A DNA stretch of 64,000 nucleotides from Bacteroidia bacterium (GTDB lineage Bacteria; Bacteroidota; Bacteroidia; AKYH767-A; OLB10), in assembly GCA_016788165.1 (NCBI GenBank), contig JAEUTH010000015.1, positions 62,001 through 126,000 of the forward strand. The letters run 5' to 3'. A program made the position numbers and the translations under genes. Below, piece by piece: positions 2,690 to 36,139 of the stretch. Below the pieces are notes generated by a model. It was not told the DNA's origin, did not search any database, and saw only the letters and a list, made by a program, of their open reading frames with translations. Numbering within the stretch: position 1 is the stretch's first letter; each line of letters starts with the position of its first letter.

Positions 2690-3796
2690 TTATTTGGGCA
2701 AATTAAAATTATCAGAAGGTTTTGTTTTTGGTTGTTCGAAAGGTGTATTTGCAGGTACCGGTTGTTGTTTTTGTATTAAATCAAGTTGTTCTTGCAGTTT
2801 AATAGTTTTTTGTTTTTCGGCTTTTAATGCCTTCGATAAATTGATAACAATATCACCTGTATTATTACTGTCGAAAATTGCTTTGTACTTATTTAAATCA
2901 TTGTTGACTCTGATTAGTGAGTCGTTTACTAATAATAATTTATTGTAAGCTAATTGATGTTGTTCAGCTGCTGTGGTTAACTGTTGTTTTTCCTGATTAA
3001 AATGTTTGGCTTCTTGTTTCATTGCTTCAATTGTATTTATAAGCAGCTCATTTTCTAAACTCACATTATTAAGCAACGTTTTTAGGTTAATAATTGATTC
3101 GGCTAAGATACTAATGTCGTCTTCGGGTTTAGCGCTAACATTCCCGTTACTATCATTGGTAAGAAGATAGAAAAAATCAATTTTAGCTTTACTTGATGGT
3201 CCAATTACAAAACCAAAATTACCGGATTTGTAACTTATGTTTTTGCAAGTAAATGCGAAGTTGGTATTTATATAAAAATCATAAACACCTTCCATAAACC
3301 TAAGTTCAATTAAATTAGCAATGCCATTTTGATGTATAAAATTACTTCTTACCCACCCTTCTCCTTTTAAATCGCCCGAAATAAATTTATAGCCATTGCC
3401 CGAAATTTCGCGGATACGGAATTGTTTTTGCCCATTAACTTCAAATAAAAAACCACCCTTTTTATCAGGTTGCAATTGAAATAATAAACCCATACTATTT
3501 AATTCGGTAGAAGCTTTATCCAGCTTTAATGATGTAATCAACTTATATTGTAAAGCTGTGTTTTCGAACCCACATACTATTGCGAATGGCGCTACCGAGT
3601 TTTTTCTATTTAGAATATACTCACCATCCTGTACAATAAAAAAGTTTTCGTTGTTGGCAGCAATCGTCCAGGCCGAAGTACTGCTGTCAAAGTTTTCTTT
3701 AACTAACGCCTTTTTAAAATCTAGAGTAATCGTTTGTGCAATTGTTGATACACTATTTAAAAAAAGTATAATTAAACTCATGTAAAAATATTTCAT
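2690..3796 (-). CDS. Secreted coiled-coil protein with LamG-like N-terminal half
   Basis: I chose the ATG at 3796 rather than the longer in-frame start at 3832, because it places a clean signal peptide ([14 protein letters not shown]..., cleavage after SVSTIAQ) at the N-terminus. Residues about 25-210 look like a concanavalin/LamG-type beta-sandwich, as in DUF1080-like proteins (aromatic, Gly-rich strands such as [10 protein letters not shown] and GNFGFVIGP). Residues about 230-345 are a coiled coil rich in Leu, Glu, Lys and Gln. The tail is Pro-rich. The protein is probably periplasmic or surface exposed. The function is unknown and the beta-sandwich assignment is by eye only. Confidence 0.7.
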
Positions 3797-3960: not shown

Positions 3961-4158
3961 TTACTTAGCTTTAGGAGCAGCTTTCTTAGCAGCAGCTTTC
4001 TTAGGAGCGGCTTTCTTAGGAGCAGCTTTCTTAGGAGCAGCTTTCTTAGCAGCAGCTTTCTTAGGAGCGGCTTTCTTAGCAGCAGCTTTCTTAGGAGCGG
4101 CTTTCTTAGCAGCAGCTTTCTTAGGAGCAGCTTTCTTTGCAGCTTTTTTAGTTGCCAT
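3961..4158 (-). CDS. Histone H1-like Lys/Ala-rich DNA-binding protein
   Basis: The 65-residue protein begins MATKKAAKKAAPKK and is then built almost wholly from pentapeptide units AAPKK and AAAKK. This composition is typical of bacterial H1-like (Hc1-type) nucleoid proteins and resembles eukaryotic H1 tails. It should be unstructured, strongly basic and bind DNA or RNA electrostatically. The DNA is a 15/30-bp direct repeat (about 3970-4140), so copy number is likely to vary between strains by slippage. A longer overlapping minus-strand frame (3825-4220) reads LLLRKPLLRK repeats and is a frame-shifted shadow. The gene stands alone with its own terminator. Confidence 0.85.
   Translation of the reverse strand: MATKKAAKKAAPKKAAAKKAAPKKAAAKKAAPKKAAAKKAAPKKAAPKKAAPKKAAAKKAAPKAK
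3970..4140 (-). repeat. 15-bp in-gene direct repeats encoding AAPKK/AAAKK
   Basis: The coding strand of the histone-like gene is a run of near-identical 15-bp units, alternating Pro and Ala at one codon. Groups of units are duplicated exactly (30-bp periodicity), which suggests recent slippage expansion. Confidence 0.85.
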
Positions 4159-24120: not shown

Positions 24121-24780
24121 TTACCTATGCTTATCAACCAGGCCATGCTCAACAGCATATAAAACCAAACCGGCCAAATTTTTCGAATTTGTTTTTTGAA
24201 TCAATCTAATCCGATGGCCTTCTATGGTTTTATCACTCAGGCACATTACATCGGCAATTTCTTTTGTACTCATTTGAGCACATACATATTTAAGCACCTC
24301 TTTTTCACGGTCGGTAAGTTGGTTGCTCGTATCGCTGTTGTAAGTGCTCGTTTCGGCATGTATAATGCGTTGTAAAAGCACGTCCGATACTTCTTTGCTA
24401 TAATACTTGCCGCCCATCATAACTTCGTTAATGGCCATTTCTATTTCGGCTTTATTCGTGTTTTTAAGTAAGTAGCCATTTACACCTGCTTTAAACATTT
24501 CAAGTATATTATCTTTATCATCATACATACTTAAAGCAACAACTTTTACTCGCGGATATTTTTGTACAACCAACTTTGTGGTTTCAATGCCGTTTTGGTG
24601 CGGCATTTTAATATCCATAAAAATAATATCTACTTCTTCTTTCGATAAAATATCCATCACAAACAAACCGTTTTCGGCTTGCAATATTTTGCCAACGCTA
24701 TTTATTGTTTTGATGGATAGCTCTAAACCTTTTCTGAACATTTGGTGGTCGTCAGCGATAAGTACTTTAAGATTTTCCAT
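24121..24780 (-). CDS. NarL/LuxR-type response regulator
   Basis: The start at 24780 gives MENLKVLIADDHQMFRKG, the canonical receiver opening; an upstream in-frame ATG at 24846 would run into the kinase gene. The product is 219 residues. The receiver domain has acidic pair D10/D11 and phosphoacceptor D56 in FMDIKMP. The C-terminal LuxR HTH (LTDREKEVLKYVCAQMSTKEIADVM ... TIEGHRIRLIQKT) binds DNA as a dimer. It lies 11 bp after its cognate kinase. The paired GGGNNNNCC sites upstream of this operon are a candidate target by proximity only. Confidence 0.94.
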   Translation of the reverse strand: MENLKVLIADDHQMFRKGLELSIKTINSVGKILQAENGLFVMDILSKEEVDIIFMDIKMPHQNGIETTKLVVQKYPRVKVVALSMYDDKDNILEMFKAGVNGYLLKNTNKAEIEMAINEVMMGGKYYSKEVSDVLLQRIIHAETSTYNSDTSNQLTDREKEVLKYVCAQMSTKEIADVMCLSDKTIEGHRIRLIQKTNSKNLAGLVLYAVEHGLVDKHR

Positions 24781-24791
24781 GGTTTGGTTTA

Positions 24792-25583
24792 TTAGGTGGT
24801 AATAGTAAGTGTAGTGTGTTTTAATTGAAAATCTATTGAATAGCAAGTGCCTTGCCCCGGTTTTGAAACCACTTCACAAACCCCTTTATATAATCTGACC
24901 CGGGTTAGCACATTGTTTAAACCTAATCCCTTATTTACGCGCATTTCGTCAAACCCTTTACCGTTATCTTTGTATAATACTCTTAACAAACCGGCTTGCT
25001 TATGTGCTATAATATCAATACGCGTACATGCTGCATGTTTAATTGTATTATTTATAAGTTCCTGAATAATGCGATACAAATTTATTGCAAAGTCGGGATC
25101 TTGTATTTCCTTAAAACTTTCAATTTCTAAATCAATTTTTATAGGGCTTCCTTTTTCAATTTGTTTTTTAAATTCATGTAATTGAAGGTATATACCTTTT
25201 TCACTAATATACTTTGCTGCAAGGTTGCGCACAATAATTCTAATATCCGTAATTACGTTATCGAGCATTTCATTTGTTTCTGCAATCAGTTGGTTTCTAT
25301 CTTCAGTAGAAAAGTCGTTATGCATTAAATCAATACTAAGTTTAAGTGCGCTAAGCCTGGGTCCAATATCATCATGCAGGTCTTCCGCTATCCGGCCGCG
25401 TTCTTGTTCCTGTGCTTGCAGCGTAGCTTTAAACAAATCTTCTTGTTTACGTCTGATACTTTTGTAGTAACGCCACATTGCAAACAAAAAAATAGCAGCT
25501 ATTATGATAATAGTAATAAACACTATTAACAACGCCAGCAATGAGCGGCTATCGCTATCTAACTTTAAAAGTATTTCCTGCAA
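24792..25583 (-). CDS. Sensor histidine kinase, HisKA_3 type
   Basis: The 263-residue kinase has one N-terminal membrane helix (residues 13-36) and no sensor domain of its own. The dimerisation/phosphoacceptor segment ERGRIAEDLHDDIGPRLSAL carries H70. The ATP-binding domain shows QELINNTIKHA (N box), DNGKGFD (G1) and KGLGLNNVLTRV (G2). This NarX/DesK-like class pairs with LuxR-type regulators, here the next gene. Since the kinase has no input domain, the 7-TM and secreted proteins encoded upstream are likely to supply the signal. Its start overlaps the 7-TM gene by 29 bp. Confidence 0.93.
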   Translation of the reverse strand: MQEILLKLDSDSRSLLALLIVFITIIIIAAIFLFAMWRYYKSIRRKQEDLFKATLQAQEQERGRIAEDLHDDIGPRLSALKLSIDLMHNDFSTEDRNQLIAETNEMLDNVITDIRIIVRNLAAKYISEKGIYLQLHEFKKQIEKGSPIKIDLEIESFKEIQDPDFAINLYRIIQELINNTIKHAACTRIDIIAHKQAGLLRVLYKDNGKGFDEMRVNKGLGLNNVLTRVRLYKGVCEVVSKPGQGTCYSIDFQLKHTTLTITT

Positions 25584-26187
25584 CTAAGTATGTTTTAGTA
25601 AGTAGTAAACAAAAGATGATGTGACTAATATTGTAAAAAAGCCAAGCTTGCTTGGGCATTAAAAATACAGTACTAACTACAATAAGCGTAATTGAGGTAT
25701 AAACAAAAATTGAAGTTACGCCCCAAAAAACAGCGTTTTTGCTAATGATACTCGCTTCTTCAACAATTATAAATAGCTTAACTGCTGCAAATATTGCAAT
25801 AACTGACGATACAACTGTATTAAACACCGGCATTTGTTCAAAAATACCTAAACTACCTTTTTCATTTTGTGTAAGTAATGCTGAGTAGGCCCAGAATACA
25901 ATTAAAAGCAACAAACCAAAAATCAATTTCCATCTTTCTTTTATCGGCTTTGGCCAATTAGCTATCAAACTAAAAAGAATTACTTTTTCAAGTAAGATGA
26001 AAACATTAACCACAACCATATTATTTAAATGACGGGTAAAATAGGTTAAGCAAATTTGGTCGGATAAGAACGATAATGCTAAATAAAATAAAATCCACTT
26101 AAAGGGTTTGGTAAGTTTATCAAAATACCATAATCCAAGTGCTAAAGGAATTATAGTTGTGTAAATAGCAATGTATGGTAAAACCAT
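25555..26187 (-). CDS. Seven-helix membrane protein of unknown function
   Basis: The 210-residue product has seven predicted membrane helices at about residues 4-21, 29-49, 57-77, 87-105, 121-143, 152-174 and 180-203, with short loops and no soluble domain. It starts immediately after the TAA of the secreted-protein gene (TAAATG) and overlaps the kinase gene by 29 bp, so translational coupling is likely. Its position between a secreted protein and an input-less kinase suggests a membrane sensor or signal relay, similar in idea to 7TM receptor modules fused to other kinases. That role is inference; no motif identifies it. Confidence 0.75.
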   Translation of the reverse strand: MVLPYIAIYTTIIPLALGLWYFDKLTKPFKWILFYLALSFLSDQICLTYFTRHLNNMVVVNVFILLEKVILFSLIANWPKPIKERWKLIFGLLLLIVFWAYSALLTQNEKGSLGIFEQMPVFNTVVSSVIAIFAAVKLFIIVEEASIISKNAVFWGVTSIFVYTSITLIVVSTVFLMPKQAWLFYNISHIIFCLLLTKTYLVAGNTFKVR

Positions 26188-26886
26188 TTATCGTTTGTCA
26201 GTATTTAATGAATTTGAATCGCTACAATAATTGGGACAAGGCACATTCTGATCGGCAACATAAGCAACCAGGTCAACGCCCTTAGCATCAACTCCAAAAA
26301 GTACCATTGTTTTTTTTCCGCTGCTGTTTAGCCCAATATAAAAGCGCACACCTACACAGCCGGGTTGGTCTAACAAAGCCACTATAGCATCTTTACCAAA
26401 AAGGCCTCCCTTTATCTTGTCATTATAATGTGCTGAGTGCCTGTAATTAAATGCAGCTGTATCAGCTGTTCCTGTATCCACTTGTTGGTTTTGCTCAGGT
26501 GAAACTACAGTTGTGCCGGTTTGCAAAGCCACAATGCCAGGTAAAATATCATTGTGTCTTGTTTCTGTTTGACGCGTAGCGCCTACTATCAGTATAGTCA
26601 TTCTATCATTATGATAAGCATAATAACCTCTGATACCACTGGCATTTTTTTGACTTATGATTTTATTTAGAGTTGCCGAAGTATAAAAGGCTCCTTGGCC
26701 ACCTTGATGGTACTTATTAACTATGGCACGGCCTTCTACAGGATCAATGAGATGGTTAGCACGCGAAAGCGGTAACTCGGCAGGGGGTACGGCATAACTT
26801 GGTGTGAGCATAAAAGTTACCGAATGTGCTTTAGGTTGAAAGAATGCAATTAGCAATAATAAAAATACGGTTGTAAGGTTTTTCAT
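26188..26886 (-). CDS. Secreted protein of unknown function, first gene of two-component operon
   Basis: The ATG at 26886 gives a signal peptide (MKNLTTVFLLLLIAFFQPKAHS); an upstream ATG at 26919 would add eleven residues. The mature part of about 210 residues has no domain I recognise. It contains IRGYYAYHNDRMTILIVGA, a Cys in DQPGCVGVRFYIGLN and a Cys pair near the C-terminus (VPCPNYCSD), which could form a disulphide in the periplasm. It leads the operon with the 7-TM protein, kinase and regulator, so a ligand-binding or sensing role outside the cell is plausible but unproven. Confidence 0.7.
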   Translation of the reverse strand: MKNLTTVFLLLLIAFFQPKAHSVTFMLTPSYAVPPAELPLSRANHLIDPVEGRAIVNKYHQGGQGAFYTSATLNKIISQKNASGIRGYYAYHNDRMTILIVGATRQTETRHNDILPGIVALQTGTTVVSPEQNQQVDTGTADTAAFNYRHSAHYNDKIKGGLFGKDAIVALLDQPGCVGVRFYIGLNSSGKKTMVLFGVDAKGVDLVAYVADQNVPCPNYCSDSNSLNTDKR

Positions 26887-26970: not shown

Positions 26971-27045
26971 CATAGGGAAAACCCTTACTTAAAATTCGGG
27001 AAAACCATCTTGACCTAAGCTCATTCTTTGTTGTGATTTGTATCA
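26971..27045 (+). promoter_or_regulatory. Paired GGGAAAACC sites plus TTTGTATCA, copy 1
   Basis: GGGAAAACCC starts at 26975 and GGGAAAACC at 26998 (23 bp apart, about two helix turns). TTTGTATCA is at 27037-27045, exactly 39 bp after the second site. The same ordered set occurs at 33679, 33703 and 33742. The 17-bp string AAGGGTTTTCCCTATGT is shared between loci in inverted orientation. The block lies about 90 bp upstream of the minus-strand secreted-protein gene and could also drive the + strand. The TTTG box fits the -7 element only loosely. Confidence 0.5.
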
Positions 27046-27349
27046 ATTGAAAACGATACCTGTTCATTGCCTCGGCATAAGGTTTCTAAGCCTTTCGTTC
27101 TTCTTTTAGTGGCTATTAAACAAATTTAATTTACCTACGGGGGTGAGTAATATTAAATTAGAGAAACAAAGCCATTAGTTTTTTGAGGCATGCCCTTTGG
27201 TTTGAAACGAAACGATTTTAATGGGCAGCACAAAATTGAAACCGCTTGAAAAGCCCCGTAAGGTTTACAATCGGTCAAAATTTGTTTAATTAACTAACTA
27301 CTAAAGACAATAAAAAAGCCACAAACAAGTATGGGTTTGTGGCTTTTTT
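27046..27349 (+). ncRNA. Candidate non-coding transcript with hairpins
   Basis: The 447-bp gap between the sensory operon and gcvP has no credible ORF but has ordered structure. After the TTTGTATCA box comes a long imperfect hairpin (27107-27177: TAGTGGCT/AGCCATTA outer arm, AATTTAAT/ATTAAATT inner arm, Gly-rich loop). A second hairpin follows with CCGTAA loop inside AAGCC/GGTTT (about 27252-27267), and then a strong terminator. The start is inferred from the box and the end from the terminator. No known RNA family is recognised. It could instead be an untranslated spacer. Confidence 0.35.
27311..27349. terminator. Bidirectional terminator next to gcvP
   Basis: AAGCCACAAAC (27316-27326) pairs perfectly with GTTTGTGGCTT (27335-27345), an 11-bp stem with an 8-nt loop, with T-tracts on both strands. 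It ends gcvP on the minus strand and any + transcript from the upstream non-coding region. Confidence 0.9.
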
Positions 27350-27366
27350 ATTTAATTTTTAAATCA

Positions 27367-33677: not shown

Positions 33678-33750
33678 AGGGTTTTCCCTATGTTATTTCT
33701 ATGGTTTGCCCTCTTGAATTTCGGCTATGGTTTGATGCATCTTTGTATCA
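33678..33750 (+). promoter_or_regulatory. Paired GG-N-CC sites plus TTTGTATCA, copy 2
   Basis: GGGTTTTCCC (33679-33688) is followed by GGTTTGCCC (33703-33711) and TTTGTATCA (33742-33750). The offset from the second site to TTTGTATCA is 39 bp, the same as at copy 1, and the first-to-third offset is 63 versus 62 bp. CTGTTCA and GTTTCTAA follow in the same order at both loci. A TTTG box also precedes TTTGTATCA by about 10 bp in both. This points to a shared promoter/operator rather than chance. It lies about 125 bp upstream of the minus-strand epimerase and about 790 bp upstream of the + T9SS cargo gene. Confidence 0.5.
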
Positions 33751-33873
33751 GAAATTTTAGTCAACTGTTCAACAAAGTTTCTAACCAACATGAATCGCTC
33801 TTTGAACAATTAGTCAGTTAAAAGGTTCTGAACCTAGCCCAAAATTTGTCATTAAAATCTAATGACAATTTCA

Positions 33874-34148
33874 GCAGTAAAAACACAGCCCCGTAAGGCT
33901 GTTAGTTAATCCCGTAAGGTTAACACTGCAAAAGCCGCAGTAAAAACACAGCCCCGTAAGGCTGTTGGTTAATCCCGTAAGGTTAACACTGCAAAAGCCG
34001 CAGCAAAAACACAGCCCCGTAAGGCTGTTGGTTAATCCCGTAAGGTTAACACTGCAAAAGCCGCAGCAAAAACACAGCCCCGTAAGGCTGTTAGTTAATC
34101 CCGTAAGGTTAACACTGCAAAAGCCGCAGCCCTGTAAGGCTGCAATGG
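33874..34148. repeat. Tandem array of four 63-bp hairpin units plus a partial unit
   Basis: Units begin at 33874, 33937, 34000 and 34063 (exactly 63 bp each), with a short fifth unit from 34126. Copies differ at only one or two positions. Each unit holds ACAGCC-CCGTAA-GGCTGT (perfect 6-bp stem), GTTAATCC-CGTAA-GGTTAAC (imperfect stem) and CTGC-N7-GCAG. The CCGTAAGG core appears twice per unit. The last partial unit is GCAGCC-CTGTAA-GGCTGC, whose compensated stem bases argue that the hairpin is conserved. There are no spacers, so it is not CRISPR. Because 63 is divisible by 3, long spurious ORFs with repeated peptides appear on both strands. Confidence 0.92.
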
Positions 34149-34270
34149 ATGCTAAGGTTTCACATGTCGCGATGACAATGTAATTTACAAACACAACCAC
34201 ATTTGAAAAGATTATGGCCTAACCATTACCAACCTAAACTAACCACAACTTTAAACCTAAACCAACCACT

Positions 34271-34306
34271 TGCAATTAGCATCCGGTTTACTCCGGATGC
34301 CTTGCA
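34271..34306. other. Hairpin with 8-bp GC-rich stem
   Basis: GCATCCGG-TTTACT-CCGGATGC (34279-34300) is a perfect 8-bp stem, flanked by TGCAA/TTGCA arms (34271-34275, 34302-34306) that extend it. No T-tract follows on the + strand, so it is not a standard terminator. It lies between the 63-bp array and the T9SS cargo gene. Confidence 0.6.
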
Positions 34307-34379
34307 CCTTCAAACCTTTTAACAACAACTAATTTGATTATGATAATTACACTTGCTATGATGGAATGCAAGCTTTTTT

Positions 34380-34453
34380 CCAGCTGTTTTTATATGAAAC
34401 GGAGTAGATAAAAAATTAATGGGGGTTAATAAAATCTACTCCGTTTTAGCTGG
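34380..34453. other. Long fold-back inverted repeat upstream of T9SS cargo gene
   Basis: AAACGGAGTAGAT (34397-34409) pairs over 13 bp with ATCTACTCCGTTT (34434-34446). The outer arms CCAGCT (34380-34385) and AGCTGG (34448-34453) extend the stem past an internal bulge. The loop is AT-rich with GGGGG. It ends 87 bp before the cargo ATG and could be an attenuator, an mRNA-stability element or a small fold-back transposon remnant. Confidence 0.6.
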
Positions 34454-34540
34454 TTTAGTTACAACTAAAACTATTTATATTATTAATGTTATTGGCTAAC
34501 AATACTAAAGCTACATTTGAACCTTTGGTATCCAATAAAC

Positions 34541-36139
34541 ATGTTCAAATATTTACCGATTTTACTTTTGATTTGGCAAACAAAATTGTTTGCGCAAGCA
34601 CAACAGTTTACCGTTGCCGTAACCGATACAGCAACCTTACTTAGTATGCCTGCCGTACACTCGGGTGCTTACGCAGTTTATGATGGATGCTGGTTTGTAA
34701 TTGGGGGGCGCATAAACGGATTGCATGGCTTTACACCACCAAATGGATTTAAACCTAATGGTATAAACAGTATGGTTTACATGATTAGCCCGGCCAATGA
34801 TACCCGTAAAGAAAAGCATGTAATGCAAGATATATCCGACACAGCTATGCTTGATGCATTGCAGGCAGCATTTTATCAGTTTGCACAAAATGACAGTATG
34901 CTTTATATAACAGGTGGTTATGGTTTACTAACTGATAGTGCCGATAACTATACCTTACCAAACTTAATAGCTGTTAATTTAAAGCAACTTAAAACTGCAT
35001 TAAATAATAACACTTCTATTGCACCAAGTTTTAGATTAATAACCGACCCATTACTTAAAGTTTGTGGGGGTAATATGTATAGAACCGACTCAACTTACCA
35101 TTTGGTTTTTGGGCATGATTTTAACAGGAGCTATTCGGTAAACGATACGTTGGGGTTTTTTACACAGCAATACACCAATGCTATACGCAGTTTTAATATT
35201 AATGACGATGGCATTAGCTTATCAATAAGCAACATAAGTATTATAACCGACTCAGTTAATTTTCACAGACGCGATTACAATTTAGTTCCGCAAATATTTC
35301 CTGATGGCACAACAGGGCAAACAGCATTTAGTGGCGTTTTTCAATATTACACCCGACAGCCGTATTTAAATTGTGTAAACATTAAACCCACAGGCTACGA
35401 TGTAATAAATAATTTTAATCAAAACCTGTCGCAATATCAATCGGCTTGTATGCCTGTGTATAATGCAATTGATAATAAAATGAGCACCGTATTTTTTGGT
35501 GGCATGAGTTTATATACATACGATACAACAACACAAACATTTTTGGTTGATAGTATGATACCGTTTGTACCTACAATAAGTAAAGTAGTGCGCCATGCTG
35601 ATAGCTCGTTAACCGAATATTTAAACCCAACTGAAATGCCAAGCTTAATTGGCACCAACAGCATTTTTATAATTGATGATAGCATACCAACTTATACAAA
35701 TGGCATTATTAATTTAAATGCGCTTCCCTATGGCACCACACGTGTAGGAAGCATTATTGGTGGCATTAACAGTGATTTGCCACACGTTAGCAACACGCCT
35801 AATTTTTCGTATGCATCAGGTTTTGTTATGCGTGTTTACCTTACAAAAATTATTGACACAAAAACACCTGAAACCGAAGTAAAAAACAATATCATAAACC
35901 TGATTGCATATCCAAACCCAACCACAAAAAACATAACCATTCAGTTTGAACTTAATAAACCTGAGCAAGTGCAAATCGCCATTTTAAATGCAACTGGCAG
36001 TCGAATAAAAACCATGGAACTTCCATTACAACCTTCCGGATTTTATCAAATAAATTACCAAGCAGAAAAACAGGGCTTGTACTATAGTAAAGTTATAACA
36101 CCAACTTTTACCAAGACTGTAACTTTTATAGTTAAATAA
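34541..36139 (+). CDS. Kelch-like T9SS-secreted protein
   Basis: I start at the ATG at 34541 because it gives a proper signal peptide (MFKYLPILLLIWQTKLFAQ); a TTG at 34517 lies in frame upstream. The 532-residue protein has repeated Gly-Gly strand motifs spaced like Kelch blades (WFVIGGRINGLHGF, LYITGGYGLL, VFFGGMSLYTYD, GSIIGGINSDL), suggesting a beta-propeller. The last 80 residues are a type A T9SS sorting domain (NLIAYPNPTTKNITIQF ... GLYYSKVI). It should be exported across the outer membrane and retained at the surface or released. Its upstream region carries the hairpin array and fold-back. Confidence 0.82.
   Translation: MFKYLPILLLIWQTKLFAQAQQFTVAVTDTATLLSMPAVHSGAYAVYDGCWFVIGGRINGLHGFTPPNGFKPNGINSMVYMISPANDTRKEKHVMQDISDTAMLDALQAAFYQFAQNDSMLYITGGYGLLTDSADNYTLPNLIAVNLKQLKTALNNNTSIAPSFRLITDPLLKVCGGNMYRTDSTYHLVFGHDFNRSYSVNDTLGFFTQQYTNAIRSFNINDDGISLSISNISIITDSVNFHRRDYNLVPQIFPDGTTGQTAFSGVFQYYTRQPYLNCVNIKPTGYDVINNFNQNLSQYQSACMPVYNAIDNKMSTVFFGGMSLYTYDTTTQTFLVDSMIPFVPTISKVVRHADSSLTEYLNPTEMPSLIGTNSIFIIDDSIPTYTNGIINLNALPYGTTRVGSIIGGINSDLPHVSNTPNFSYASGFVMRVYLTKIIDTKTPETEVKNNIINLIAYPNPTTKNITIQFELNKPEQVQIAILNATGSRIKTMELPLQPSGFYQINYQAEKQGLYYSKVITPTFTKTVTFIVK

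Follow-up and report, generated by a model that had tools for sequence, protein, structure and literature searches.

Most of what is known of CsrB-type sponge RNAs comes from Proteobacteria, the response regulator GacA is of the NarL type, and a global RNA-binding protein in Bacteroides has been described only recently. In the CsrB/RsmZ systems one RNA ties up numerous molecules of a protein that binds mRNA, and selected CsrA ligands favour six-base loops (PMC7652899), while a palindromic site upstream of rsmX/Y/Z has been attributed to GacA (PMC2375449). The known Bacteroides small RNAs (sRNAs) GibS and FopS work by pairing; FopS RNAs are multicopy, ~65–70 nt long, and combine a single-stranded seed at the 5' end with one terminator hairpin, and the protein RbpB prefers single-stranded regions (PMC11697453). 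Here we describe a string of hairpins in a stretch of 64,000 nucleotides from a Bacteroidia bacterium genome of 3.34 Mb (the window), for which the most likely reading is an independent small RNA encoded at 33.75–34.15 kb and belonging to a new family spread across the class.

The array comprises nine hairpins, two in each of four 63-bp tandem units (4.1 copies, 98% matches) plus a last one (Table 1). All nine share the hexaloop CYGUAA, which is CCGUAA in eight and CUGUAA in the final hairpin. One 63-bp unit folds into a three-way junction closed by GCAGU/ACUGC, and the array region folds well beyond its shuffles (z −5.8). The element CCCGTAAGG occurs nine times against 0.12 expected, and of the five copies of CCCCGTAAGG in the genome, the array has four and the fifth is at 27254. 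An earlier, sequence-only reading of the window had named the dyads, the box TTTGTATCA (33742), the 63-bp units, a hairpin at 34279 and a 13-bp fold-back at 34397/34434, and all were found in place; the last two, counted there as parts of the same locus, lack the CYGUAA loop and are not members. The plus strand of the array holds no clear terminator, and four array hairpins are terminator-like on the minus strand. A coding role was rejected: arrays elsewhere show no three-base periodicity, and the ORF on the minus strand gave no Pfam match above the cut-off; the array is open in one frame on both strands because its unit length, 63, is a multiple of three. A plain DNA search for conservation of the locus gave just a 23-bp match (33860–33882) in one relative, probably by chance.

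Table 1. Features of the array locus, the sibling locus and the two-component operon in the window.
Feature	Position	Strand	Remarks
NarL/LuxR-type response regulator	24121..24783	-	likely owner of the dyads
HisKA_3-type histidine kinase	24792..25583	-	
Predicted membrane protein, same operon	25555..26187	-	
Predicted secreted protein, first gene of the operon	26188..26886	-	dyads ~90 bp from its start
Sibling operator doublet GGGAAAACCC, GGGAAAACC	26975..27006		between two-component operon (left) and single-hairpin locus (right)
Sibling promoter box TTTGTATCA	27037..27045	+	same box as at the array
Single CCGUAA hairpin, AAGCC/GGUUU	27250..27267	+	R1 23.4 bits, E 0.02
Terminator hairpin AAAAAAGCCACAAAC...GTTTGTGGCTTTTTT	27309..27352		usable from both strands; would end the sibling RNA
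Operator dyad 1 GGGTTTTCCC (GGGTTTTCCCTATG on +)	33679..33688		one of two exact 14-mer copies in the 3.34-Mb genome
Operator dyad 2 GGTTTGCCC	33703..33711		24 bp after dyad 1
Putative promoter: TTG (33714-33716), 21 nt, CATCTTTG (33738-33745) overlapping TTTGTATCA (33742-33750)	33714..33750	+	
Four 63-bp tandem units with CCGUAA hairpin pairs	33874..34130	+	stems ACAGCC-CCGUAA-GGCUGU and GUUAAUC-CCGUAA-GGUUAAC
Ninth hairpin GCAGCC-CUGUAA-GGCUGC	34126..34143	+	25.8 bits

The array lies upstream of a Kelch-like gene at 34541 on the same strand, with no strong terminator between the two, and it could be read as a cis-acting leader of that gene, as the sequence-only reading had suggested. This is probably not its role, and we consider it very improbable: a TAnnTTTG box of its own, TACATTTG at 34512–34519, stands ~20 nt ahead of the ATG of the Kelch-like gene, related genes in other genomes do not share the intergenic region of the window upstream, and arrays elsewhere adjoin unrelated genes. 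A search of the genome contigs with the Kelch protein gave no match.

The independent-RNA reading gains from a second locus in the window. Dyads and promoter box recur at 26975, 26998 and 27037, an agreement that had been pointed out before, with dyad-to-promoter spacing near-identical at 27.0 and 33.7 kb. The dyad doublet occurs twice in the window against 0.015 times per shuffle, and the 14-mer GGGTTTTCCCTATG with at most one mismatch has two copies in the genome, exactly at these loci, while TTTGTATCA alone is weak (four against 1.4 expected). What the two loci share in order is the dyads and the promoter box, not the full operator sequence: beyond the palindrome, GGGTTTTCCCTATG lies on opposite strands. 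A genome-wide scan with R1, a covariance model built for one hairpin, gives good scores to nothing but the array's nine hairpins and the hairpin at 27250; the best match after these has E 0.6. The one CCGTAA hairpin claimed for the second locus is located ~200 nt 3' of the second TTTGTATCA box and ahead of the terminator. The coincidence of two rare features at both loci is strong evidence that 27.05–27.35 kb is a one-hairpin sibling. As for further copies in the genome, the array itself proved unique, but this sibling exists.

The stems of the hairpin vary while the loop hardly does. Among CYGTAA occurrences, stems of at least 5 bp accompany 207 of the 243 inside arrays, 9 of the 149 outside them in the same loci and 1 of the 83 on the opposite strand. 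The units in the window are recent tandem copies, which makes stem covariation impossible within this genome, and covariation was assessed on 137 distinct CYGTAA 18-mers from inside arrays, taken with no stem filter. Paired cells reach 91% against 63.9% in shuffled sets and at most 46% with partners slid, double changes number 272 against 94, and compensatory change is seen at all pair positions. Covariation scores 0.777, compared with 0.264 shuffled and at most 0.166 with slid partners, in a test that is partly conditioned because stem-bearing hairpins had defined the array spans. The covariation that the sequence-only reading had named as a check is thus strong. A GNRA tetraloop register (CC-GUAA-GG) was rejected, as it shows no covariation and its two pairs are broken in 9 and 34 of the 137 hairpins. 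Closing pairs vary among C-G, A-U, U-A and G-C, so that the hexaloop itself is what is conserved. The inner five pairs include 34 G-U against 12 A-C, an excess which indicates that the CYGUAA strand is the RNA. Palindromic units in tandem would also suit a DNA-level element of the REP/BIME type, attC-like sites or transposase hairpins; however, this G-U excess, the confinement of the loop to one strand within each array, the presence of one to few loci per genome and the lack of any transposase seen in association make such an element extremely improbable. Linkers between hairpins are A-rich, and because of this the count of T tracts downstream of arrays was not discriminating.

The hairpin string is widespread in Bacteroidota. 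A search of 345 Bacteroidia genomes for two CCCGTAAGG near each other returned 68 places in 25 genomes, against five for the reversed pattern, with runs of up to 13 hairpins in which the loop is constant and the stems differ widely among loci (tcaacc/ggttga, cagcc/ggctg, gtaaaacc/ggttttac and others). Further arrays, among the matches listed from 84,980 species scanned, occur in named Bacteroidota including Adhaeribacter aerolatus, Chitinophagaceae bacterium IBVUCB1, Flavisolibacter longurius and Flavipsychrobacter. Stems of at least 5 bp on both hairpins were present in 29 of the 66 DNA-pattern matches in Bacteroidota and in none of 59 in other phyla (46 loci with the matching DNA pattern). 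Within the order of the window's organism, R1 matches in 39 of 42 genomes, and clusters of at least two close matches occur in at least 34 of the 42 among the matches listed, usually one cluster per genome. The majority of genomes in the window's family, and some genomes of family f3, have the cluster divergent from ribB (DHBP synthase, named from sequence and not via a family search) and pointing away from it, with a varying neighbour at its far end; the window's genome is exceptional in having its array away from ribB. At L331–L334 and L307–L315, the cluster stays divergent from ribB across genera as the other neighbour changes. Promoter boxes recur 5' of arrays, CATCTTTGTATCATCAAAC-like at L128, L144, L147, L174 and L088 and ACTTTGTATCATC at L093, and arrays elsewhere have CATCTTTGTATCATCAAAC- or GTAGTTTTACATCATGAAAC-like boxes in common. 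No family of Rfam 15 reaches threshold on the window array, the sibling, 20 array loci or 20 ribB-linked and further loci, and the motif in such a context was not found in the open literature (subscription journals and preprints being outside its scope). We conclude with high confidence that this is a new RNA family. Short ORFs accompany some arrays: L166 carries MKHFFSKPQNLDQFRQKTLLNSAIVMLVFSMAIFYGAYF between promoter and array, with a close relative in L136, a possible dual-function RNA, and at L128, L144, L147, L174 and L131 small hydrophobic peptides (e.g. MLTAIMIIAFFRKYSG) would be encoded by short ORFs directly 3' of the array.

The promoter-side dyads connect the window array with a two-component system. 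Orthologous operons of secreted protein, membrane protein, histidine kinase and response regulator (S-M-HK-RR), with dyads just upstream, are found in the window and in two other genomes, G035 (L110, dyads at 3403–3470 ahead of the operon, regulator 45% identical) and G009 (L335, dyads at 950, 976 and 997, first gene at 1150). Dyads that also precede the orthologous NarL-type operon in these genomes are probably that regulator's binding site. On the simplest reading of these sequences, the NarL-type regulator is predicted to bind the dyads and to control the operon that encodes it, together with both RNAs in this genome; that the neighbouring system controls the array is somewhat more probable than not. 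Tandem GGGN4CCC dyads precede the array in this genome only and relatives' arrays have other upstream sequences, so the operator wiring is lineage-specific. The core of the sequence-only reading, an operator and promoter set followed by a regulatory RNA, gains support from the covariation, the order-wide conservation and the dyads upstream of the two-component operon. Elsewhere in the order, dyad doublets or triplets occur at two loci in G005 and at ten in G035, where they are perfect TAGGGTTTTCCCTA repeats, mostly beside an TATATATTCCTTTACA-like promoter. The ten dispersed CTAGGGTTTTCCCTAG doublets and triplets of G035 (L059, L064, L067, L069, L071–L076), mostly with a conserved promoter-like box, in several cases precede genes with signal-peptide-like starts, which suggests that the dyad-binding regulator has a large regulon. 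The first gene of the operon at 24121–26886 is conserved, has no Pfam match and could belong to signal sensing. An operator for stable RNAs, considered in view of dyads beside the SRP RNA in one relative, was rejected, since the orthologous HK-RR operons explain the dyads better.

Taken together, the explanation that we favour on balance is a hairpin-string RNA under regulator control that titrates a protein in the manner of CsrB/RsmZ. The RNA would be a small RNA controlled by the two-component system, with the NarL-type regulator (24.1–24.8 kb) acting through the tandem GGGN4CCC dyads of its promoter and also governing its own operon and the sibling RNA at 27.05–27.35 kb. With its many loop copies the array RNA would offer many places to an RNA-binding protein specific for the CYGUAA hairpin, and would draw this protein away from other RNAs. 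The sponge mechanism itself, judged from the architecture of the arrays, seems to us slightly the better bet. Since lone hairpins are all but absent elsewhere in the window's genome, no target mRNA carrying this hairpin was found there.

Two rivals bear on how the loop would be used. In a base-pairing RNA, exposed CYGUAA loops, or conserved single-stranded stretches that adjoin the hairpins in relatives (UUUUAGGUUGAUU), would pair with targets and repeats would raise avidity, as GibS and FopS of Bacteroides act by pairing (PMC11697453). The larger module of family f1 fits this, as it keeps an unpaired-looking GGUUUUGGUUAGUUUUUAGGUUGAUU 5' of an outer stem GUCAG/CUGAC that encloses the CCGUAA hairpin (stem mostly 8–10 bp). 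However, the single-stranded stretch is conserved in f1 alone and the loop class-wide, and a fixed six-base loop in up to 13 copies on changing stems better fits a binding protein; we therefore regard pairing as unlikely. Alternatively, CCGUAA may be a favoured stable loop in Bacteroidota, serving in processing, stability or termination hairpins, and the array a minisatellite with no role in trans. The units here are recent tandem duplicates, lone CCGUAA hairpins are intrinsic terminators in G035 and G147, and T4-like phages place two behind the major capsid gene; with these phage pairs and lone terminators, the rival remains. It is nevertheless a still less likely account, as CCGTAA makes up just 5 of 974 other hexaloop hairpins in the flanks, and it leaves unexplained the runs of up to 13, the A-rich linkers, the recurring promoter boxes and the conservation of clusters beside ribB.

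The phage hairpins deserve separate mention. In T4-like contigs from IMG/VR (L241, L244, L245, L247, L253, L261, L262, L264, L270, L239), the major capsid gene is directly followed by two CCGUAA hairpins plus a T tract, and the pair could be a decoy or a stabilizer for the same protein. The closest named relatives of these phages infect Flavobacterium and lack the pair; the nearest named phage, Flavobacterium phage immuto, was examined as a counterpart and dismissed, having a UUCG terminator at that place instead. It is a tentative possibility that a Gac/Csr-like switch, unrelated in sequence, operates here, in which a NarL-type system makes CYGUAA sponge RNAs titrating an undiscovered global RNA-binding protein, and that some T4-like phages of these bacteria exploit or evade it through the capsid-side pair. 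Apart from this, the window holds at 3971–4143 a 15-bp repeat in 11 copies, AAKKAAPK-like on the minus strand and possibly a histone-H1/AlgP-like tail.

From a conserved RNA that is present almost throughout the order and repeats one loop up to 13 times, a specific new RNA-binding protein can be predicted in Bacteroidota, a group abundant in guts, soils and lakes. The array is an exact bait for the partner protein, the two-component link tells when to look, and the capsid-side pair in related phages has a bearing on phage–host conflict.

Compared with known systems, the array differs from a cis leader or riboswitch in that downstream genes vary and the commonest neighbour, ribB, is divergent. 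It shares palindromic repeat units with REP/BIME elements, which have many dispersed copies, whereas one array and one lone hairpin occur in 3.34 Mb here. CRISPR arrays likewise consist of repeated palindromic units, with identical repeats and unique, evenly long spacers, but in the array the stems differ and the linkers vary in length and repeat with the unit. The families of Rfam 15, none of which matches at threshold, resemble it as covarying structured bacterial RNAs. With GibS and FopS and their protein RbpB it has in common a place among Bacteroidota sRNAs, a presumed tie to an RNA-binding protein and an occurrence in phages (PMC11697453); unlike FopS and GibS, it has multiple hairpins, usually one locus per genome and no Rfam match. 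The closest likeness is to CsrB/CsrC and RsmX/Y/Z, regulated by GacS/GacA and BarA/UvrY, which are also intergenic, with many short hairpins and one invariant loop motif, linkers largely unpaired, two sibling RNAs in one genome and, in our case probably, a NarL-type regulator acting via a palindromic upstream site. The differences are the loop, CYGUAA in all arrays with no GGA motif (CANGGANG-like), the host, Bacteroidota, and the dyad, GGGN4CCC. The loop motif argues against CsrA/RsmA as the titrated protein and places the array RNA outside the CsrB/RsmZ family, although it would work like it.
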